NCBI RefSeq assembly: GCF_007860175.1
Contig: NZ_SJPX01000005.1
Coordinates: 1-64,000 of the forward strand
Source of the DNA: Rubripirellula reticaptiva
GTDB taxonomy: Bacteria > Planctomycetota > Planctomycetia > Pirellulales > Pirellulaceae
Direction of reading: 5' to 3'
DNA: 64,000 bases
Below the pieces are notes generated by a model. It was not told the DNA's origin and searched no databases. It saw only the letters and a program-made list of their open reading frames with translations. Position numbers and translations under genes: made by a program. Numbering within the stretch: position 1 is the stretch's first letter; each line of letters starts with the position of its first letter. Below are positions 15,339 to 26,159 of the stretch, one piece after another.

Positions 15339-15794
15339 TTACAGTCCGACCATCGCGTCGGCCGATACCGTGTTAGCCGACATAAAGTGACTCGTTCCAA
15401 CCGGCGGCCCCACGCAGACTCGTTTCGAGCGTGCCGATTCTAGCCCCTCGCGAATTGCCATAGCCAGATCCACATCACCGGTCGGTTTCGTCAAAAACCG
15501 AAACACTCCGCCGCGATTGATCATTTCCTGGGCCAACTCGACTCGGGCATTGCCCGTCAGCATGATTCGAACCGTTTCAGGAAAATGATCGGCAATCCAA
15601 GTGATCAGTTCGGCCCCGGTCATGCGGTCCATCTTGTGGTCCACAACGACCAGATCGAATGCACATCGTTGAAACATCTGCACTGCCATTTCACCTGAAT
15701 TGGCAATGTAGAGATCGTACGGTTGATCGCGCAAGACTCGTCGGAGCCCTCGTAAAAGGTTCATGTCATCATCGACCAATAGAATGGCAGTCAT
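15339..15794 (-). CDS. Single-domain response regulator (receiver)
   Basis: A 151-residue CheY-like receiver with a short C-terminal tail. The acidic pocket is DDD (8-10), the phosphoacceptor is Asp52 in LVVVDHKMD, the conserved Thr/Ser position falls in IMLTGNA, and Lys103 is in FLTKP. The tail (about residues 118-151) has no recognised output domain. It is the last gene of the BLUF/H-NOX operon, starting 4 bases after the stop of the preceding gene, so it is almost certainly cotranslated with it. It could be a phosphate sink, a shuttle between the two kinases and the other receivers, or a protein-interaction output. Confidence 0.9.
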   Translation of the reverse strand: MTAILLVDDDMNLLRGLRRVLRDQPYDLYIANSGEMAVQMFQRCAFDLVVVDHKMDRMTGAELITWIADHFPETVRIMLTGNARVELAQEMINRGGVFRFLTKPTGDVDLAMAIREGLESARSKRVCVGPPVGTSHFMSANTVSADAMVGL

Positions 15795-15798
15795 TGCA

Positions 15799-16956
15799 TT
15801 ACTCGGCAGTCACGGGTTGAGGATCAGAGTTGTTTGTTTTTGTCGCAGTCGCCGGTTGGACAACGACCGTGCGAACCGAGATCGGCTCACGAACGCCCGT
15901 TTGAGAACGACGCAGACGAATCAATTTTTGAATCAAGGAATCGTGAATCTCGGTGCCCGAGGCAATGAGAATTCGTCCCGACAGATCGGTCACATGGCTT
16001 TCAAGAACCATTCCATCAGTCAATTGAGCGACAGCAACTTCCTGGTTTTGGAACATCGCTTGAACGACCGCCGACAGATGTTCAACAACGACAGGATCGT
16101 ACTGAGATCGGTGCTCCATCAAACGCAGCGCCGCCAACGGTGATCTGTCGCCACGAAAACGCTGAAAATCACCGACGGCTTTTAAGATGCGAGCCGCAAT
16201 CGGAGTTGGATCGCAAGCCGGTTCGTTTTGAGCAGCCACCAAATCGGCAACTCCCTGCAATCGCGGAATCGCAGAAATCAGATCGTGACCTAGCTTCGGC
16301 GTTTGCTCGATCAGGGCTTCGTCGTCTGACGAAAGTGGCTGATGATTCAAATATCGATGAATCACGTCCGCAGGCAAAGAGACACATCCGACTCGCATCA
16401 GCATCGCTGCCATTTCAATTTGCCACATCGGCCCAATGCCGATCCGCTGAGCCACGGCGCGAACCATGGCTCGTGCTTCGCCAGTCAATCCAAATGCTTC
16501 GGGCATCGCCATCGACAATACCTGCGTCAACATGCGAACACTGCCAGCAAGAGTTTTGTTCAACAGCTCGGCTTCCGCGGTCACCAGTCGGTACTGTTCG
16601 AGTCCCGCGTCGAGTGTCTTGGCTAATTGGTCTGGCGGACAAGGCTTGCTGAGAAATCGAAAGATATTTCCTTCGTTGACAGCATCAACAGCAGTCTTTT
16701 GGTCGGCATTGCCGGTCAACATCACTCGCACGGTTTGTTCGTTACGGTCGCGAATGCTGGACAGCAATTCAACGCCCGACATTTCCGGCATCTGCATGTC
16801 CGAAACAACAACAGCAAAGGGGCCGACCTTTTCGATCATTTTCAAGGCAGCCTCGCCACCCACTGCAAAGTGCAAGTCGTACTGATTCCGCAGATTTCGT
16901 TTGAAACCTTGCAATACGTTCGGCTCGTCATCAACAAGCAAGATCTTCGTTGTCAT
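15799..16956 (-). CDS. Response regulator with degenerate HD-GYP-like output domain
   Basis: A 385-residue protein. Receiver: DDE (9-11), phosphoacceptor Asp53 in VVVSDMQMPEMSG, Lys104 in FLSKP. Residues about 140-310 follow the HD-GYP layout (MAAMLMRVGCVSLPADVI, then LIEQTPKLGHDL, then VAAQNEP), but the catalytic residues are gone: HD is Met187-Arg188, the second-helix His is Thr219, and the HHE triad position reads AQN-E. It therefore should not hydrolyse cyclic-di-GMP but might still bind a nucleotide or partner. ATG 16956 overlaps the upstream stop as ATGA; a longer frame upstream lies inside the HDOD gene. It belongs to the BLUF/H-NOX operon. Confidence 0.85.
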   Translation of the reverse strand: MTTKILLVDDEPNVLQGFKRNLRNQYDLHFAVGGEAALKMIEKVGPFAVVVSDMQMPEMSGVELLSSIRDRNEQTVRVMLTGNADQKTAVDAVNEGNIFRFLSKPCPPDQLAKTLDAGLEQYRLVTAEAELLNKTLAGSVRMLTQVLSMAMPEAFGLTGEARAMVRAVAQRIGIGPMWQIEMAAMLMRVGCVSLPADVIHRYLNHQPLSSDDEALIEQTPKLGHDLISAIPRLQGVADLVAAQNEPACDPTPIAARILKAVGDFQRFRGDRSPLAALRLMEHRSQYDPVVVEHLSAVVQAMFQNQEVAVAQLTDGMVLESHVTDLSGRILIASGTEIHDSLIQKLIRLRRSQTGVREPISVRTVVVQPATATKTNNSDPQPVTAE

Positions 16957-18206
16957 GACACAGCCTCGGGTCGCAGCAAATCGATCCAGCCTGCAACTTT
17001 GTCCATTCGTCCCAACGAACTTAGATATTCGCGGTCCAGACAGAGACCATCCACCGAACAATTCGCACCGGGGAACTTATCGCAACCTTGCCCACAAATA
17101 GCGTTTGCTGCATGGACGGCCGCGACGGGGGAAAACTCAGTGCACTCGATGTTCGTTGCGGACGGTTGATGATGAAACGCGACGGCTTCGACAATCGGAT
17201 TAGGCAGCCCCCACAGCCCCAGCAGATGAGCGCCAACGGCGGCATGAGTGGTGCCGAAGACAGACAATTCGGCCTGCCAAAGCGGGATGGATTCCTTTTC
17301 TGCCATTGCTATCGCCAGCCGATAAGGATCGGTCAAGTGAACGGCCAAGATCATCTTCCCGATGTCGTGCATCATTCCAGCAATGAACGCATCATCAACA
17401 ACTTCGATGTCGCTTGTTTCTTGTTGTGCGATCTTGCGAGCCGCGATGGCGACCGCCAAACCGTGATTGACCGAATCCTCTAGCGAGAAACCTGCTAAGT
17501 TTGGATCCTTGAACTCACCAAAAGCGCTAGCCGATAGTGCTAGCGGACGAATGATATTTAGCCCAAGCATCGAGACCGCGTGTTTTGGACTCTCCACATG
17601 ATGGGGAAGCCCAAAAAACGAAGAATTGACCAACTGCAAAACCTTCGCGCTCATCGCCAAATCGCTGCCGATCACGTCAGCAACTCGGTCGAGCGAGGTG
17701 TCGTCAGACTCTAATTCTTGAACCAACTCGCGATAGACACGCGGCAAGCTTGGCAGACTGTCAATCTTTGACGTGATCTGTTGCAGCTTTTCATCGTGTA
17801 ACTGATGCTGCAAACCACATGCGCGTTGAACCGTTTTGATTAATAGATCCGGCTCGCAAGGCTTCGACATGAATTGATGCGCTGGCCCGATCGCACGAAA
17901 TATCTTTTCGTGTTCAGACTGACCGCTCAACACCAACCGGATAGTGTGCGGATACTGTTTCGAAACCCTCGTCAACAATTCAGCTCCATCGATACCCGGC
18001 ATTCGCATGTCGGAAACAATGACATCGACGGGCTGAGTCGCCAACAAATCAAGTGCCTCTTGCCCGCCGCCGGCAAAATGCATGTCCCAAACGCCGCGCT
18101 GTCCCCGCAGCATCCGACGCAGCCCTGACAAAACGTTGACTTCATCGTCGACAAACAGAATGCTGGTTTTTACTTCAGTCGTCGCGATTGAATGCAGCAT
18201 ATTCAT
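16953..18206 (-). CDS. REC-HDOD signalling protein
   Basis: A 417-residue response regulator with an HDOD output domain. The receiver has DDE (20-22), phosphoacceptor Asp66 in VIVSDMRMPGIDG and Lys115 in FMSKP. The HDOD domain (about 140-345) reads IDSLPSLPRVYRELVQELES, SAKVLQLVNSSFFGLPHHV and AGMMHDIGKMILAVHL, then VGAHLLGLWGLPNPIVEAVAFHHQP. HDOD proteins are non-DNA-binding signalling outputs, tied in several bacteria to motility or biofilm control; notably, H-NOX operons in some proteobacteria also use HDOD or HD-GYP regulators. It overlaps the upstream kinase stop by 4 bases (ATGA) and the next gene by 4 bases. Confidence 0.92.
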   Translation of the reverse strand: MNMLHSIATTEVKTSILFVDDEVNVLSGLRRMLRGQRGVWDMHFAGGGQEALDLLATQPVDVIVSDMRMPGIDGAELLTRVSKQYPHTIRLVLSGQSEHEKIFRAIGPAHQFMSKPCEPDLLIKTVQRACGLQHQLHDEKLQQITSKIDSLPSLPRVYRELVQELESDDTSLDRVADVIGSDLAMSAKVLQLVNSSFFGLPHHVESPKHAVSMLGLNIIRPLALSASAFGEFKDPNLAGFSLEDSVNHGLAVAIAARKIAQQETSDIEVVDDAFIAGMMHDIGKMILAVHLTDPYRLAIAMAEKESIPLWQAELSVFGTTHAAVGAHLLGLWGLPNPIVEAVAFHHQPSATNIECTEFSPVAAVHAANAICGQGCDKFPGANCSVDGLCLDREYLSSLGRMDKVAGWIDLLRPEAVS

Positions 18207-19471
18207 GACGTCAACTCCGCTTCGAATGGCGATGCAACGAGTGAACCCGAGATCGGTGCCGTGACTTGCTTCGGTCGCTGCAAGGGAAGACGGATCGTGA
18301 ACACGGTCCCTTGCCCGACAACACTGGCGACATCGATCGTCCCAGCATGTTTTTCGACGATCACGCTATGAGCGATCGCCAAGCCTTGCCCGGTACCTTT
18401 CCCTGCCGCTTTGGTAGTGAAAAATGGACTAAATACTTTGGCTAGGTTTTCCGGTGTAATCCCTCGGCCGGTATCAGCGACTCGAATTTCTGCTTGCTCA
18501 TCACACCGTTTGGTCGAAATTGTGATGCAACCCTTTGCGTCGGCTGATCCGTTCATCGACTCACCAATCGCATGAGCAGCGTTGACGATCAAATTTAGCA
18601 AGACTTGATTCAACTCACCCGGGAAACACTGCACAGGCCCCAAAGTCGAATCAAAGTCTGTCTCGATGGTGGCGACATACTTCCATTCATTGCGGGCGAC
18701 CATGACCGTGTTGTTGATCGCTTGGCATAGATCCGTTTGTGCCATTTCCGAAACGCCGGGATGGGCAAACTCTTTCATCGCACGAACGATCTTTGCGACT
18801 CGATCAACGCCTTCAAGCGTTTGGCTGATCGCCGCCGGAATTTCTTCGATAAGATAGTCAACATCAGCCGAATCAATCGATAACCGCAAGCGGTTCGCCG
18901 CCTCGGCCAGATCAACAGTCTGATCAGCAAGCGCGGCAAAATTTTGGCAGTCAGCTAATAGGAGGGCTAGACCTCCAAACGCCTCTTGCACAAAACGTGT
19001 GTTGTCACCGACGTATTGAATGGGAGTATTGATTTCATGCGCGATTCCCGCCGCCAGCTCGCCAATCGACTCTAGCTTTTGCGCCTGCGCCAACCGTTGT
19101 TCAAGCTTGTCTAAATCTTTTGCGTGAGAAAACTTAGACATAAGCTCGCTGTCACTGCAGCTCTCGCCAACACAGTCGTGTACCCCTAGACGATATGCTT
19201 GCTCGGTTGAATTAGGGCTGTCATCGACGACCGCGATCAGGCAACGGCACTTGGCATGCAACTGCAACATTGTCTTATCAATATCCGTAGTCCAATCCAA
19301 TGGAAAGCGCATAAAGACGGTCGCAAAAGATCCTCGCGTCAGTTCGGTTTCAACCTCAGAATGGCAAACGGCAACGACAACATCAGCGTTAGATTGAGCT
19401 GCGAATTCTCGCACCCGAGCAATCCAATCGACATGTTGTTGTGAGTCAGGTTCAATAAGCAGAACGTGCAT
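18203..19471 (-). CDS. Histidine kinase with N-terminal pseudo-receiver
   Basis: A 422-residue soluble histidine kinase without membrane segments. ATG 19471 begins MHVLLIEPD, the first strand of a receiver-like fold (residues 1-115), but the phosphoacceptor position (about residue 54, TVFMRFP) holds Met/Arg and the conserved Lys is missing, so this looks like a pseudo-receiver. A short coiled linker ([21 protein letters not shown]) leads to the H-box [16 protein letters not shown] with His145. ATP-binding motifs follow: [40 protein letters not shown]. Its start overlaps the upstream kinase by 20 bases and its stop overlaps the HDOD gene by 4, so the genes are translationally coupled. Confidence 0.88.
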
Positions 19472-20861
19472 GAGTGCGCCTCTGGATGCTGGAATCACAC
19501 TGAATCGGCAGCCGAACAACCACTCTCGTGCCGCCCTGTGGGGGTGATTGCACGTAGATGATTCCGCCGTGTTTTTCGACGATCACGTCATGAACGAACG
19601 ACAAGCCTTGACCGGCCCCTTTTCCTACTTCTTTGGTCGTGAAGAACGGTTCAAAAATTCGCTCTTGGATTGCCGCAGGAATTCCGGGGCCGTTGTCTTC
19701 GAAGCAGACTTCGACTTCATCTTCTAGCGAATCGTTGGCCACTAGCCGAGTCGAAATACGGATGTGTCGTTCACCCTCGGCTCGATGCTCGGTGACTGCG
19801 TCAAGGGAATTGGTTAGTAGGTTTAACCAAACCTGGTTCATCTGCCCGGCCAAGCAGGACACTAAACCCAAATCGGCGGATAGGTCGAGTTCCACGTGGC
19901 CAACATTTCGGCACTGATTCGCGGTCACCGCAAGAGTGTTTTCGATCGACCGATTTACATCGATCGAAGTTTTCGCTTCGGACATCGGCTGCGAAAACTC
20001 TTTAAGCGCTCGCACGATTTTTGCGACACGTTCGATTCCCGACAACGATTGCTCGATTGCACCGGGAAACTCTTCGCGAAGAAATGGCAAGTCAGCGAGT
20101 TCGCGCTCAGTCGCAATCTTTTCGAGCAATTCGGCCGTAGGTGTTTCTTCCGCTACTGCCTTCTCTAACTGCTCGAACAGGTCAATCAGACCGGCAAGGT
20201 CGTTGAATGCCGACTGCAAGAACTGGATATTGTCGCCGACGAATTGAATCGGCGTATTGATTTCATGTGCAATGCCGGCAGCGAGTTGGCCAACCGATTC
20301 CATCTTCTGAGCCTGACGCAGGCGAGACTCCATCGCCTTGCGTTTGGACAAATCACGTACCACGGCCGTAAAAACGACTCCGTCGCCGCGTTGACAGCGA
20401 CTGACAGCAACTTCGGACTGGAAGGGTTTACCGTCAAACTTTGTCGCTGCAACTTCGATCGCGTCGGGCAGAGTGAATTGGCAGACTTCCGTGTCGTCGG
20501 TTGTAGCAAGTTCGGCACCGGGCGGAAAAACGTCGGTTGCGACATTCGACGCGGGGAACAGAACCGCACGGCAAGAATCGTCCATGGCAAACACACTGGA
20601 AATGGATTTACCAACCATGCTTGGGCACTTGAAGATCAAGCGTGCCGAACGATTGAAAGCAGAGATGGTGCCGTTCTCGTCGTACGACAAAATTCCCTCG
20701 GCCGCGGTTTCGACGATAGCGCGATTTTGGTCCGCCATCCGTTGCAACTTCTGATTCGCCTCATAAACCGCCAACGACTTTTGCTCGAGAAGACTTTCAG
20801 CTTCCTTGCGAGCCTTCCGCTCTCGCTCAAACCGTCGATTCAATAGTTCCAGTTCGGACAT
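19452..20861 (-). CDS. PAS-domain histidine kinase next to H-NOX
   Basis: A 469-residue soluble kinase. Residues 1-45 form a charged coiled coil (ERERKARKEAESLLEQKSL), a segment type often found in kinases paired with H-NOX proteins. A PAS domain follows (about 45-170: AIVETAAEGILSYDENGTIS), then the H-box [16 protein letters not shown] with His199, and ATPase motifs NQVWLNLLTNSLDAV, EDNGPGIP and FEPFFTTKEVGKGAGQGL. No membrane segment, so it senses through cytoplasmic input, plausibly H-NOX. Its ATG overlaps the H-NOX stop (TGATG), which strongly suggests co-production. It is paralogous to the next kinase in the operon. Confidence 0.9.
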   Translation of the reverse strand: MSELELLNRRFERERKARKEAESLLEQKSLAVYEANQKLQRMADQNRAIVETAAEGILSYDENGTISAFNRSARLIFKCPSMVGKSISSVFAMDDSCRAVLFPASNVATDVFPPGAELATTDDTEVCQFTLPDAIEVAATKFDGKPFQSEVAVSRCQRGDGVVFTAVVRDLSKRKAMESRLRQAQKMESVGQLAAGIAHEINTPIQFVGDNIQFLQSAFNDLAGLIDLFEQLEKAVAEETPTAELLEKIATERELADLPFLREEFPGAIEQSLSGIERVAKIVRALKEFSQPMSEAKTSIDVNRSIENTLAVTANQCRNVGHVELDLSADLGLVSCLAGQMNQVWLNLLTNSLDAVTEHRAEGERHIRISTRLVANDSLEDEVEVCFEDNGPGIPAAIQERIFEPFFTTKEVGKGAGQGLSFVHDVIVEKHGGIIYVQSPPQGGTRVVVRLPIQCDSSIQRRTHARSAY

Positions 20862-21430
20862 CAGACAGTCTCGGCTAATAAGCAGTTCGTTGTCTTAGGA
20901 GTCAGCGTGAAAGTGGCTTCGGTACCATTTTTCTCACCAATGTCCGTTCGAGCGACTTCGATTGCGTCGGCAAAGTGATCAACACAAGCAAGGACCAGCC
21001 CCTCGGCCAAGTCGGCAAACGGACGCTTGGATCGGTACGTCATGGCAAGCACTTCACCGGTTTGCTGACACTCAAAGGAAGGCAATTCAGCATCCGGATA
21101 GAGTTTGCGGACCTCAACGTGAATGTAGGTCTCAACTAAGGGCAAGAACTGCGTTGCCGATTCAATTCCTGAAAAGAATTGAGGATAGAGCTCGAAAAAG
21201 CGAACAAATAAGTGCTTGCCGAACGTGCGAACCAATTCAGATACAGGAATCGAGGTCTCTTGCGAAAGCGCTACAACTAGATGAATCAGTTCGGCGTGAT
21301 CGTAGGTGCCGACGGCGGTATAAGCGCCACTGTTTTGGGTGTTACCGCCCGCAATCATGCGGTCGGCGATCTCGATACCAAGATCGCTTTCAACCATCTC
21401 GATCAATTCAGTAAAGACGATGCCCTTCAT
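20861..21430 (-). CDS. H-NOX haem-nitric oxide/oxygen sensor
   Basis: A 189-residue stand-alone H-NOX (HNOB) domain. Visible signatures: N-terminal MKGIVFTELIEMVE, AYTAVGTYDHAELIHLV, the proximal-histidine segment YIHVEVRKLYPDAELP with His104, and the haem-propionate motif Y-x-S-x-R at Tyr132, Ser134 and Arg136. These match the spacing of characterised H-NOX proteins, so ferrous haem binding is expected. The ligand (NO versus O2) cannot be read with certainty because I could not place the distal-pocket Tyr. The stop codon overlaps the start of the PAS kinase, the classical H-NOX/kinase pairing. The gene follows the BLUF gene by 47 bases. Confidence 0.93.
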   Translation of the reverse strand: MKGIVFTELIEMVESDLGIEIADRMIAGGNTQNSGAYTAVGTYDHAELIHLVVALSQETSIPVSELVRTFGKHLFVRFFELYPQFFSGIESATQFLPLVETYIHVEVRKLYPDAELPSFECQQTGEVLAMTYRSKRPFADLAEGLVLACVDHFADAIEVARTDIGEKNGTEATFTLTPKTTNCLLAETV

Positions 21431-21477
21431 AATTCATCCAATGCAATAGGCGTACGTGCGAGAAATTCCCCAGCCAA

Positions 21478-22017
21478 CTAGTTTGCGCTGAGTACCGGTT
21501 CGGTGAACTCGGATCGACGCCAACGCCCGCGTCGGAAACCTTCGAGAATCTGCCGCATGCGTTGCGAGTCGCTTTTCAAGTCAATGAACTTGGGCGACTG
21601 TCCGGCGGCGCAACTATCGGAAGAACTCGAACCCGGTCCCTCTGTGTCGCGTTGTGCAAAGAAGTCGACGAATCCGGGCAGCAGATCGATGACACCCTCG
21701 TCACGAGTGAACCCCATCTGCCAGTCGCCAAAGTGTCGGCTGTCGATCTCTTGCTCGGACAGCACGATCATGTTGCAGTGACGCGGATCCGCAGAGATCC
21801 GGCGAAAAAGCTTGTCGACGGCGTCCGCCGGTCCTTCCATTACCTGAAAAAACGTGCGGTCGCGAAATAACAATACTCCGGTGATCCCAATCGACTGATT
21901 CGATGATCGCGAAAGACGAAGTAGTCCATCGAGCTCTGTTTCTTCAAAGGAAGCGACGGCAGCACTGGCATACACCATTTGCTTCATCAGATTCGTTTTG
22001 GAAGATTTACTATTCAT
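21478..22017 (-). CDS. BLUF-domain blue-light photoreceptor
   Basis: A 179-residue short BLUF protein. Counting from ATG 22017, the flavin-site residues are Tyr16 (MVYASAAV), Asn40 (SSNQSIGITG), Gln58 (FFQVMEG), Trp99 and Met101 (FGDWQMGF). Their spacing equals that of AppA (Tyr21, Asn45, Gln63, Trp104, Met106) with a constant offset of five. It should bind FAD and respond to blue light. The tail after about residue 115 is Ser/Gly-rich then basic (GFRRGRWRR) and carries no enzymatic output, so signalling must go through partners. Start 22017 is preceded by GGGGCG; ATG 22029 is also possible. It is the first gene of the seven-gene operon. Confidence 0.93.
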   Translation of the reverse strand: MNSKSSKTNLMKQMVYASAAVASFEETELDGLLRLSRSSNQSIGITGVLLFRDRTFFQVMEGPADAVDKLFRRISADPRHCNMIVLSEQEIDSRHFGDWQMGFTRDEGVIDLLPGFVDFFAQRDTEGPGSSSSDSCAAGQSPKFIDLKSDSQRMRQILEGFRRGRWRRSEFTEPVLSAN

Positions 22018-22402
22018 AATTCGCCCCATTGGCCAAGAACGTGTTTCCCCCGCGCTCGACCTGCCCAAGATAAGCAAACGACTCATTCGGGCAGTTGAAG
22101 CCTGTGTCAACTTCTCTCCCGACGCCGACGAATCTCGCCGATATTACGGCTCGCCCCGCATGAAGTGTTGAACGATGACGGTTGTGCCGGTTGATTCGGC
22201 ATATCGCGAAAATGGAGACCCGGATGGCAGCCCACTTAGGATTGAGTGCAACCATAGGAATGGGTGGCAATGAATCTCCCAAAACTCGCCACACCCTGCC
22301 GAATCAGTTTCAGCCTAAAACTTCGACTAGAATGATATTGTTCTCTTCACGCTCATTCCACACGCCCACCTATCACATCCCCGCCCCAGCACGGAACCAC
22401 CG
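22018..22402. promoter_or_regulatory. Divergent intergenic region, signalling operon versus esterase
   Basis: These 385 bases separate the minus-strand BLUF/H-NOX operon from the plus-strand esterase gene and must contain both promoters. No gene is supported here. I could not assign -35/-10 elements with confidence and see no long palindrome. The stretch near 22326-22345 is relatively AT-rich (AGAATGATATTGTTCTCTTC), a plausible promoter position for the esterase. Confidence 0.4.
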
Positions 22403-23869: not shown

Positions 23870-24401
23870 GAAATTCCCTGGTCGTGTCTGCGCTGCACTT
23901 TGTGTCATCGGTTAGTAGACGGCGGATCTTCCAACGCCATCGCAGCGCGAGTTTAGCTGGCTAGCGTAAGTCATCAATGGTGTTTTGGGTGTTCACGAGT
24001 CCAGTTCCATCGCGAATGCACAAGACCGAATCGCTACAGTCGTCAAACTTGATATCGTCAGTCGTTTAGCTCGACGCAATCCGCCTGTTTTGCCTTGGCA
24101 AACTCTTTTGCGTGCTTAACGCTTCACCCGTAGTCGATGAATCCAGTGCAACGACTTCCTCTTCGCCAGTGAGCACAGATTACGCGATTCGGTTCACCCG
24201 CCTCGCTCGTGCAACTCGCCCAGTTTGAGGTGCCGGATTTGCGAGACGTCTGCAAAAGAAACCAGACAAGGGTCGTCCAAAAATCTGCGTGCTGCGTGTC
24301 GCACAGGAACATCGATTGTGAGTTTACCGATGCCGGAGCATCGGGAGTTTTTTAGCTACGTCCAACGCAACCTAACGGTTGCACCTAGTGGAGAATTGAA
24401 T
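23870..24401. other. Gene-free region upstream of the YTV gene
   Basis: About 530 bases between the DUF3859 start and the YTV protein start. No supported gene, no RNA gene and no strong hairpin were seen; it should hold divergent promoters. Such a long leader region fits a highly expressed wall protein, but promoter elements could not be fixed by eye. Confidence 0.4.
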
Positions 24402-26159
24402 ATGAGAAAGCTTTGGTTGTTGCCTGCCGTTGCGATCATTGCGATCGTATCGGGAGCAAAATCGGTTAACGCCGCATATTGCGGTGCGATTAGCTATCAG
24501 GGTTGTAGTGAGTGTGGCTCGAGTGTTGTCGATGGCGGCATGGCTTCAGAAGGCGTCATCGTCGACGGCAGCGTAATTGCTGACGGCGGCTCGATGGGTG
24601 CCCCAGTTGCTGGCGGCACCTACACGGTCATGCGTTCGGTTCAAGAAACCGTCTACGATCAAGTTGAAGAAACTCGTTACCGTTCACGTAACGAAGTTTA
24701 CTACGAAGACAAAGAAGTGTCGGGAACACGAAGCGTTCCTTACACCGAATCCCGTGAAGTTCAGTACACGGTCATGGTTCCCTCGTATGAAACCAAGACC
24801 CGCACACAGAACTACACCGTGATGAACAAAGTCGTGGAGAATCACTCCAAGACGATCAACTACACGGTCAAGGTTCCTACTTACGAAACCAAGACTCGCA
24901 CGATCAACTACACCGTCAACAAACCGGTGTACGAGACTCATCAAAAGACGATCAACTACACGGTCAAGGTTCCTGTAACGGAAACTCGCCAAAAGACGAT
25001 CAACTACACGGTCATGAATCCGGTTCGCGAGAACCACAGCAAGACCGTCAACTACACCGTCATGGTTCCAGTTCAAGAACAAAAGTCGCGTACGATCAAC
25101 TACACGGTCTACAACACTGTTCAAGAACAAAAGACTCGAACGGAAAACTACAGCGTTGTTGTCCCTGTGACAACGACCAAAATGGTTACCGTCAAGGGTG
25201 GAAACTGGGAAACGATCACCGAAGAAGTTCCTGGCAAGATGATGAAGCGCACTGTGCGTGAACCAGGCACTTGGACATTTGATCCGTCGACCTGCAAGAA
25301 CGTTTACTGCCCCGGCGCTTGCCGCACAGAATGCGTTCAAGGTTGCCCAACGACTGTCTGCAAGAAGGTTTGGGTTCCAACCTGCGAGCAAAAAGAAGTG
25401 ACTTGCACTTCTTACACTCGTGAATGCCGCACTCGTGAGATTCCTTACACCGTATGCCGTAAGGTTCCAGAATGCCGCACCAAGGTTGTAAACTACACCG
25501 TTTGCAAGATGGTTCCTGAATGCCGCAGCAAGGTTGTCAACTGGACAACTTGCAAGATGGTTCCAGAATGCCGTAGCAAAGTTGTAAACTACACCGTTTG
25601 CAGCACTCGTTGCGAAAACCGTAGCAAGGTTGTCAACTACACGACTTGCAAGATGGTTCCAGAATGCCGTACCAAGACTTGCAACTACACCGTCTGCAAC
25701 ACTGTTTGCGAACAACGTAGCAAAGTTGTCAACTACACGACCTGCAAAATGGTTCCAGAATGCCGCACCAAGACCATCTCGTACAAAGTGTGCAAGATGA
25801 TCCCAGAATGCCGCACCAAGACCGTTTGCGAAACCAAGTGCCGCACTGAGTGCTTCACAAAGATCGTCAAAGTTGCTAAGTGCCGTAAGGTTTGCGAACC
25901 TTACACCGTTACCAAGTGCGTTCCACGAGTTGTCTGCAAGCAAGTTCCAGTTCAAGTTTGTGCTCCTGCACCAACTTGCTGCGATCCTTGCTCGGCTGGC
26001 GCCATGAGCAGCGACTGCGGTTGCGGTGCTGCTTCGGATTGCGGTTGTGCAGCACCTAGCTGCGACGGCCCAGTGAAGAGCTTGCTGAAGAAGGTCTTCG
26101 GCGGACACAACTGCGGTTGCGACACTGGTTGCGACGTTGCACCAGCTTGCGGTTGCTAA
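24402..26159 (+). CDS. YTV-repeat cysteine-rich cell-wall protein
   Basis: A 585-residue secreted protein. ATG 24402 has a GGAG site and starts a signal peptide (MRKLWLLPAVAIIAIVSGAK, cleavage near VNA-A). Residues 121-248 are eight exact 16-residue repeats without Cys (type NYTVKVPTYETKTRTI). After a Cys-containing linker (about 298-345), residues 348-475 are eight further 16-residue repeats carrying Cys (type NYTVCKMVPECRSKVV). The C-terminus is Cys/Gly-rich (SSDCGCGAASDCGCAAP). This is the planctomycete YTV family, reported among Rhodopirellula cell-wall proteins and thought to be disulfide-cross-linked in the wall. Codon use is uniform across repeats, suggesting high expression. Confidence 0.92.
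   Translation: MRKLWLLPAVAIIAIVSGAKSVNAAYCGAISYQGCSECGSSVVDGGMASEGVIVDGSVIADGGSMGAPVAGGTYTVMRSVQETVYDQVEETRYRSRNEVYYEDKEVSGTRSVPYTESREVQYTVMVPSYETKTRTQNYTVMNKVVENHSKTINYTVKVPTYETKTRTINYTVNKPVYETHQKTINYTVKVPVTETRQKTINYTVMNPVRENHSKTVNYTVMVPVQEQKSRTINYTVYNTVQEQKTRTENYSVVVPVTTTKMVTVKGGNWETITEEVPGKMMKRTVREPGTWTFDPSTCKNVYCPGACRTECVQGCPTTVCKKVWVPTCEQKEVTCTSYTRECRTREIPYTVCRKVPECRTKVVNYTVCKMVPECRSKVVNWTTCKMVPECRSKVVNYTVCSTRCENRSKVVNYTTCKMVPECRTKTCNYTVCNTVCEQRSKVVNYTTCKMVPECRTKTISYKVCKMIPECRTKTVCETKCRTECFTKIVKVAKCRKVCEPYTVTKCVPRVVCKQVPVQVCAPAPTCCDPCSAGAMSSDCGCGAASDCGCAAPSCDGPVKSLLKKVFGGHNCGCDTGCDVAPACGC
24762..25145 (+). repeat. Eight 48-bp tandem repeats, Cys-free YTV units
   Basis: Eight consecutive 48-bp units encoding 16-residue repeats (residues 121-248), each opening with (N/Q)YTV and closing with a K/R-T-(I/V) step. 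DNA identity is high around AACTACAC(C/G)GTC, but units vary by codon, which argues for protein-level selection and old duplication. Confidence 0.9.
25443..25826 (+). repeat. Eight 48-bp tandem repeats, Cys-bearing YTV units
   Basis: A second block of eight 48-bp units (residues 348-475) with the same 16-residue period but with Cys after YTV/YTT and, in most units, a second Cys in VPEC. Same unit count and period as the first block of the gene. Confidence 0.9.

Follow-up and report, generated by a model that had tools for sequence, protein, structure and literature searches.

What is a blue-light photoreceptor of the BLUF family doing at the head of an operon that also encodes a haem sensor of the H-NOX family? 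The question is raised by seven minus-strand genes at 15339-22017 of a 64,000-nucleotide stretch of Rubripirellula reticaptiva DNA (contig NZ_SJPX01000005.1, positions 1 to 64,000; hereafter the window), whose host genome comprises 7.85 Mb in 13 contigs and carries one H-NOX gene and two BLUF genes. Besides the two sensors, the genes encode two histidine kinases and three proteins with receiver (REC) domains. In the reading that we favour, with a probability of roughly 0.6, the operon is a signalling unit of two inputs, two kinases and three receivers, in which BLUF reports into the same relay as H-NOX. H-NOX would bind nitric oxide (NO) and alter the activity of the neighbouring kinase 1 via an N-terminal helix of that kinase, kinases 1 and 2 would phosphorylate the related receiver domains of a REC-HDOD protein, a REC protein with a degenerate HD-GYP domain and a lone receiver, and BLUF would pass a blue-light signal into the relay by protein contact, via either kinase 2 or the lone receiver.

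The operon and the linkage of its two sensors

The operon and the region upstream of it are composed as follows, from BLUF to the lone receiver.

21478-22017, minus strand: BLUF, a short BLUF photoreceptor of 179 amino acids with its ATG at 22017 (Pfam PF04940, 105 bits, cut-off 25)
20861-21430, minus strand: H-NOX, a stand-alone HNOB haem sensor of 189 amino acids (Pfam PF07700, 119 bits, cut-off 25.5)
19452-20861, minus strand: histidine kinase 1, with the N-terminal helix (residues 3-53), PAS, DHp and CA parts (HATPase_c 84 bits, over the cut-off)
18203-19471 from ATG (19474 with TTG), minus strand: histidine kinase 2, with an N-terminal pseudo-receiver, DHp with a HEINTP box, and CA (HATPase_c 91 bits)
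16953-18206, minus strand: REC-HDOD response regulator (Pfam HDOD 186 bits, Response_reg 76 bits)
15799-16956, minus strand: response regulator with REC and a degenerate HD-GYP domain (Pfam HD_5 69 bits)
15339-15794, minus strand: lone receiver of 151 amino acids (Pfam Response_reg 75 bits)
22018-22402, no strand: divergent intergenic region, presumed from the gene layout to be the promoter region of the operon

Consecutive genes are spaced by +47, -1, -20, -4, -4 and +4 bases in this order, and Response_reg scores 75-76 bits in all three receivers. The order, strand, gaps and overlaps given in a first-pass annotation of this DNA were all recovered from the coordinates, and its domain assignments for the seven proteins are upheld by Pfam, by alignments and, for the pseudo-receiver, by a predicted structure. 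A terminator scan of the region found terminator-like sites at chance level (8 against 9.4 expected) and none in the 47-base gap between BLUF and H-NOX. The interval 22018-22402, in which a promoter search gave no match, separates BLUF from an esterase-like gene diverging on the plus strand from 22403.

The conservation of this arrangement was followed in 241 genomes of the family Pirellulaceae (G-numbered, G000 being the window's own). A set of 147 relatives held H-NOX in 40 and BLUF in 22; across the 241 genomes, H-NOX is present in 80 (79 over the cut-off), BLUF in 54 and both in 26. In 11 of these 26, representing five genera, BLUF adjoins H-NOX on its 5′ side and on the same strand (G000, G001 and G018 of the window's genus, G032, G180, G070, G075, G270, G271, G280 and G282). 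The coupling of the two sensors was to be given up, according to the first-pass annotation, if the genes adjoined in no related genome; an adjacency of 11 in 26 has a probability of about 2e-33 under a simple and generous chance model, and chance neighbourhood is thereby ruled out. All seven genes are held at 10 of the 11 linked loci, and their exact order at eight (G000, G001, G018, G075, G270, in which kinase 1 lies in two frames, G271, G280 and G282). G070 shows the first five genes and then a contig end, and the rearranged loci of G032 and G180 read kinase 2, REC-HDOD, REC-HD-GYP-like, REC, an extra REC, a CheX-HATPase kinase, BLUF, H-NOX and kinase 1. Kinases 1 and 2 overlap by 20 bases in the window and at seven of nine adjoining loci (26 in L059, 16 in L079). 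The five genes flanking the operon in the window are unmatched beside the other operons, except for short matches of one common family, and the seven genes are thus supported as one operon-like unit that has been kept in relatives with different flanks.

Two departures from the seven-gene plan may be recorded here. An added REC and a further kinase occur at loci of G032, G180, G251 and G161 (L082:11435-13209, L208:6607-8398, L233), the kinase being recognised as CheX plus HATPase by Pfam in G032 and by BLAST to the G032 kinase in the others. The split of kinase 1 in G270 (L081:12428-13785) is a frameshift or a sequencing error.

In an H-NOX tree of 46 chosen proteins (the family plus a few from other phyla, with a midpoint root and several long branches elsewhere), all 11 BLUF-linked H-NOX proteins fall into one 13-row clade with support of 100/99, which is compatible with a single origin of the linkage. 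Beyond the family, one genome each of 84,980 species, a collection from which records near the window's own may be absent, was scanned with an alignment of the operon-type H-NOX, yielding at least 594 stretches, at least 560 of them relatives, and the best 80 stretches were retained together with flanks of up to 10 kb each, some ending sooner at contig ends. When these best 80 loci were searched with a BLUF profile, which recovers 20 BLUF loci of a control set, the one match was the locus of G270 itself, and the other 79 gave none. BLUF occurs in 32 of 392 genomes sampled across the phylum; leaving G000 aside, 31 remain (27 from outside the family), of which four have H-NOX and none has it next to BLUF. 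Within the scope of these searches, the linkage is restricted to the Pirellulaceae. H-NOX relatives also occur in 18 plasmid records, and a distant genome of the same phylum has two BLUF matches in tandem (G354:C30:7759-8494).

H-NOX and the helix of its neighbour

In the H-NOX protein, H104, Y132 and S134 are invariant in 13 aligned rows and R136 in 12 of the 13, corresponding to what we take to be the proximal His and the YxSxR motif, and the best match among solved structures is 6ocv (E 3.5e-46). L141 sits at what is presumably the place of the O2-binding distal Tyr140 of Thermoanaerobacter H-NOX, and this would argue for NO and not O2 as the ligand. In the favoured reading H-NOX would bind NO and probably not O2.

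Kinase 1, which directly follows H-NOX, is marginal in Pfam for PAS (23.0 against a cut-off of 22.6; PAS_9 24.7 against 27) and for HisKA (22.1 against 26.9); HisKA is not among the matches of kinase 2, and the HEINTP box with the phospho-acceptor His is present in both kinases. Ahead of its PAS-like part, the predicted structure has a single helix of residues 3-53 that runs into that part (mean pLDDT 81, pTM 0.58). The N-terminal 50 residues of 12 orthologues of kinase 1 were made into a profile, which was searched for in called genes of at least 100 amino acids in the best 80 H-NOX loci of the species-wide scan, a set that is not fully independent (several loci come from Paenibacillus, Leucothrix and Massilia). 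A same-strand gene directly 3′ of H-NOX is present, by the rule used, in 70 of the 80 loci, 10 being without such a gene. The segment is found in 69 of these 70 genes and in one of 1015 other genes; the sole miss is in L170, and the sole other bearer is the gene 5′ of H-NOX in L175. Helix-bearing genes range from 109 to 952 amino acids and differ in their best BLAST matches, and a helix of 45-50 residues (window 20712-20861; loci L097-L176) thus marks the gene adjoining H-NOX across phyla.

A similar association holds within the family, where 51 of the 241 genomes have the segment and 48 of these also have H-NOX (Fisher p 2e-25). Among 57 copies of the helix, 45 lie within 1.5 kb of H-NOX and 12 farther away; seen from the sensor, 45 of 61 stand-alone H-NOX frames have the helix within 1.5 kb and 16 do not, and it is near only one of the 36 H-NOX matches in frames of at least 450 amino acids, which are probable fusions. 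Kinase 2 is without the segment. Because the helix is so nearly restricted to genes directly 3′ of H-NOX, kinase 1 is the likely partner of H-NOX, and from this correlation we infer that the segment serves as an H-NOX docking helix. A description of such a partner helix was not recognised in the open-licence papers examined, which is a weak negative. From the helix, the signalling partner of a bacterial H-NOX could be predicted.

The place of BLUF in the relay

The BLUF protein retains Y16, N40, Q58, W99 and M101 in all 12 aligned rows, with the spacing of Tyr8, Asn32, Gln50, Trp91 and Met93 of PixD, which we take to be the photocycle residues. At its C-terminus (window 21478-21540), an FRRGRWRR-like stretch is nearly invariant in the operon copies and one solo copy, and is possibly a partner-binding tail. 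The invariant flavin site bears on a reading in which BLUF senses flavin redox and H-NOX senses NO or redox, the operon then serving nitrosative or redox stress rather than light sensing. Integration of light and redox signals has been reported for AppA, which joins BLUF to a haem-binding SCHIC domain (PMC4844311; this and the other papers given by PMC number are cited from excerpts), and oxidative activation of H-NOX is the title topic of PMC12329717. A redox-only role would not require the five photocycle residues, all of which are invariant, and we consider such a stress unit improbable.

A light input that works through the relay has to be weighed against several observations to the contrary. 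BLUF and H-NOX are non-adjacent in 15 of the 26 genomes that have both, lying on different contigs or far apart, although several of these assemblies are fragmented and the BLUF match of G002 is at a contig end. Even where linked, they are separated by 29-242 bases (11 loci), wider than most joins of the operon, the gaps between kinase 2 and the HDOD gene being similarly wide in relatives (2-203 bases). The H-NOX proteins of G254 and G251 are nested in the linked clade, yet their operons contain no BLUF; one gain and two losses of the linkage suffice for this pattern, these three changes being open to other readings. In a BLUF tree of 46 rows, a subset of the family matches, all 11 operon BLUFs belong to a 15-row clade (95/84) that also includes BLUFs lying away from H-NOX in G001, G003, G083 and G254. 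Kinase 2, for its part, has orthologues in the BLUF-less operons of G254 and G251 and on a contig of G161 with neither sensor, and its close relatives adjoin H-NOX but no BLUF in G168 and lie apart from H-NOX in G171, G172 and G175. Lastly, in a distance-correlation test on nine genomes (G032 was dropped as a near copy of G180, and G070 as incomplete), no relay part tracks BLUF significantly, all p values being at least 0.096 and the lowest belonging to the HDOD output.

It might be supposed from such observations that BLUF is a passenger, co-transcribed for the sake of co-expression and working outside the relay. The solo operon-clade copies in four genomes, the BLUF-less G254 and G251 within the H-NOX clade, the wide gap between BLUF and H-NOX at several loci and the non-significant coevolution signal would all suit a passenger, whereas the linkage has been held in 11 genomes of five genera despite differing flanks, and the five flavin-site residues are invariant although the other operon BLUFs are only 44-50% identical to that of the window. 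We regard the passenger as unlikely, if less so than the redox unit.

The window BLUF groups with the solo BLUFs of G001, G254 and G003 (94/82), apart from the other ten operon BLUFs, and its nearest relative is the solo BLUF of G001, with 58% identity. G001 has both an operon with its own BLUF and this solo copy, which adjoins the same DUF3859 gene that is found two genes away from the window BLUF. When the six non-BLUF genes are concatenated, G000 groups weakly with G254 (SH-aLRT 79, bootstrap 75), whereas the H-NOX tree alone does not group them. These relationships fit shared descent of BLUF with relocation in G254 and G001; alternatively, the window BLUF may have replaced an older operon BLUF.

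If BLUF does report into the relay, the candidates for its partner are kinase 2 and the lone receiver. The phospho-acceptor H146 of kinase 2 is invariant in 12 rows, whereas the N-terminal domain has only four invariant columns in 11 rows. Its first 124 residues are predicted by AlphaFold to adopt an alternating beta-alpha fold (pLDDT 93), for which Foldseek gives receiver domains as best matches, for example NtrC1 (E 1.8e-6) and VicR (E 5.2e-6). In the window protein other residues stand in place of the acceptor Asp and Lys, which are unconserved in relatives, and the name pseudo-receiver that the domain was given at first sight is thus borne out by both the alignments and the predicted fold. 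It is also the fastest-changing part of the operon, with a mean distance of 1.93 against 0.28-1.03 for the others. Because of this rapid change and its docking-type fold, kinase 2 is a candidate partner of BLUF, and its pseudo-receiver would be the docking domain.

That BLUF and kinase 2 were always gained together is ruled out by the orthologues and relatives of kinase 2 that occur without BLUF. Coevolution of BLUF with one particular partner is likewise unsupported by the distance correlations, in which the partial r between BLUF and the kinase 2 N-terminus is -0.32; with G000 removed, it is 0.65 for H-NOX and 0.43 for the HD-GYP-like receiver (no p value accompanies these), and the kinase 1 helix gave no value. 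The idea in the first-pass annotation that both sensors feed one relay consequently stands in part: H-NOX is tied to kinase 1 by the helix correlation, whereas the BLUF input has no assigned partner and no significant correlation, kinase 2 also occurs without BLUF, and two H-NOX loci of the clade are without BLUF. In G175, G172 and G171 (L210, L211 and L219), a kinase-2-like gene, a REC-HDOD gene and a REC-dead-HD-GYP-like gene form a three-gene unit with neither H-NOX nor BLUF beside it, BLUF lying elsewhere in those genomes.

PixD with PixE is the model for a BLUF protein that acts on a receiver. By this model, BLUF would act on the lone receiver instead of a kinase, light gating the role of the receiver as a phosphate sink or adaptor. 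The lone receiver has a full active site, D8-D10, D52, T80 and K103 being invariant in 11 rows. In G001, the solo BLUF nearest to that of the window has, 67 bases downstream, a single REC with 46% identity to the lone receiver, and the surrounding 18 kb showed no match to H-NOX or the operon kinases; this REC keeps D52 and K103, although D9 and T80 are changed, which counts against the model. Of the 241 genomes, 14 have relatives of the lone receiver at E 2e-38 or lower, and 11 of the 14 also have an operon-clade BLUF, but this co-occurrence is mostly the operon itself. G003 has a lone-receiver relative and an operon-clade BLUF with no H-NOX, and in the operon of G254 BLUF and the lone receiver are both missing. 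On the other hand, G251 and G029 have the lone receiver in an H-NOX operon without BLUF, while G254 and G083 lack the lone receiver but possess a BLUF of the operon clade. An action of BLUF on the lone receiver in place of a kinase is accordingly held to be tentative, although a more serious contender than the passenger. The signalling unit in which BLUF joins the relay, by whichever of the two partners, is the reading carried forward below.

Outputs, precedents and meaning

Some known systems resemble parts of the operon. In Shewanella oneidensis, a network of H-NOX, the kinase HnoK, a second kinase HnoS and the regulators HnoB, HnoC and HnoD takes in more than one stimulus; the input of HnoS is called unknown in the review, and HnoD, whose HD-GYP domain is degenerate, reportedly restrains a phosphodiesterase of cyclic di-GMP (c-di-GMP) (PMC6335343). 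The dead domain of HnoD is named HD-GYP in that review and DGC in another paper. As described in those sources, the Hno network shares with the present operon an H-NOX-adjacent kinase, a second kinase and three regulators, one of them with a degenerate HD-GYP domain; it differs in having no BLUF and in having an EAL regulator and a transcription-factor regulator. The likeness to HnoD is by description, the degeneracy in the present protein having been judged against intact paralogues. A 2019 paper, to go by its title, reportedly deals with NosP modulating the Shewanella H-NOX network. The NosP/NosK/NosR relay consists of a haem-based NO sensor, a kinase without a sensor domain of its own and a REC-degenerate HD-GYP regulator, for which restraint of a c-di-GMP enzyme has been proposed (PMC12570481). 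To judge from that excerpt, it shares with the operon the haem NO sensor, the kinase and the degenerate regulator, but its sensor is a FIST protein and not H-NOX, and it has one kinase and one regulator. All three receiver proteins of the operon find their best NCBIfam model in NosR (NF053512), with 201, 145 and 122 bits, all under the cut-off of 400, the score of 201 bits being that of the REC-degenerate HD-GYP protein.

The degeneracy of this protein is clear from the alignment. The HD and HHExW(D/N)GxGYP motifs are absent from all 14 rows (the window and 13 orthologues), while both are present in the three REC-HD-GYP paralogues used for comparison, and the first-pass description of a dead HD-GYP-like domain thus proves correct. 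Its presence in all 14 rows means a conserved state and not recent decay. Motif-bearing REC-HD-GYP paralogues lie near the dead regulator at L060:12293-13516, L079:6910-8094 and L070:7088-8242, as an eighth operon gene in G075 and G282 and as a third regulator in G038; none was seen at the other nine BLUF-bearing loci examined, including 20 kb of the window. A candidate of the same kind in G168, recognised by BLAST and Pfam (HD_5 131 bits), is flanked by kinase 2 and REC-HDOD. The acceptor Asp and Lys are present in REC-HDOD, and Pfam finds no EAL, DNA-binding or FIST domain in the seven operon proteins.

From the lack of an intact c-di-GMP site, the first-pass annotation had concluded that the response is through protein contacts. 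Its premises hold, the HD-GYP domain being dead and a DNA-binding domain absent, but the conclusion is too narrow, as the analogy with HnoD and NosR and the eighth gene of G075 and G282 point to c-di-GMP. Because of the roles of HnoD and NosR and of the motif-bearing HD-GYP protein in two sister operons, our best guess is that the output of the operon bears on c-di-GMP. The degenerate HD-GYP protein, like HnoD and NosR, would be a phosphorylation-controlled binder of a c-di-GMP enzyme, which in the window's genome would have to lie outside the operon, and the output would probably be surface attachment or motility under c-di-GMP, together with contacts mediated by HDOD.

Apart from the operon, the window holds a plus-strand cysteine-rich frame at 24225-26159 that is composed of many NYTV-type repeats. 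Three of the seven operon proteins were tried against defence families and gave no match.

Light-sensing precedents are also partial. PapB is a short BLUF protein acting in trans on PapA, and BlrP1 is a BLUF protein tied to c-di-GMP (PMC8846402); a short BLUF working in trans and a link to c-di-GMP are the likenesses, and the difference is the EAL effector, absent from the seven proteins. AppA, as described in its excerpt, resembles the operon in combining light and haem/redox input in one regulator, but it is one polypeptide acting on a repressor, whereas here two separate sensors are joined to a kinase relay. In the open-licence literature, neither an operon of H-NOX with BLUF nor H-NOX in planctomycetes or Rhodopirellula was recognised, an absence that carries little weight. 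The parts and the type of relay are known; what seems to be new is that an H-NOX relay has a photoreceptor conserved and encoded with it as a second sensor.

If light and NO do act on one set of receivers, this would be the first phosphorelay known to us whose photoreceptor and haem-based gas sensor are encoded separately within a single conserved operon. In five genera an H-NOX operon is headed by a BLUF protein whose flavin site is intact, which offers a seven-protein system for the integration of light and NO, and natural controls are at hand in G254 and G251, the BLUF-less members of the clade, and in G075 and G282, with their added candidate for a c-di-GMP enzyme. The chances seem evenly balanced that the operon is a coincidence circuit, in which BLUF and H-NOX together set the phosphorylation of shared receivers and a c-di-GMP or surface decision needs both. 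If so, that decision of the cell would depend on blue light and NO together.

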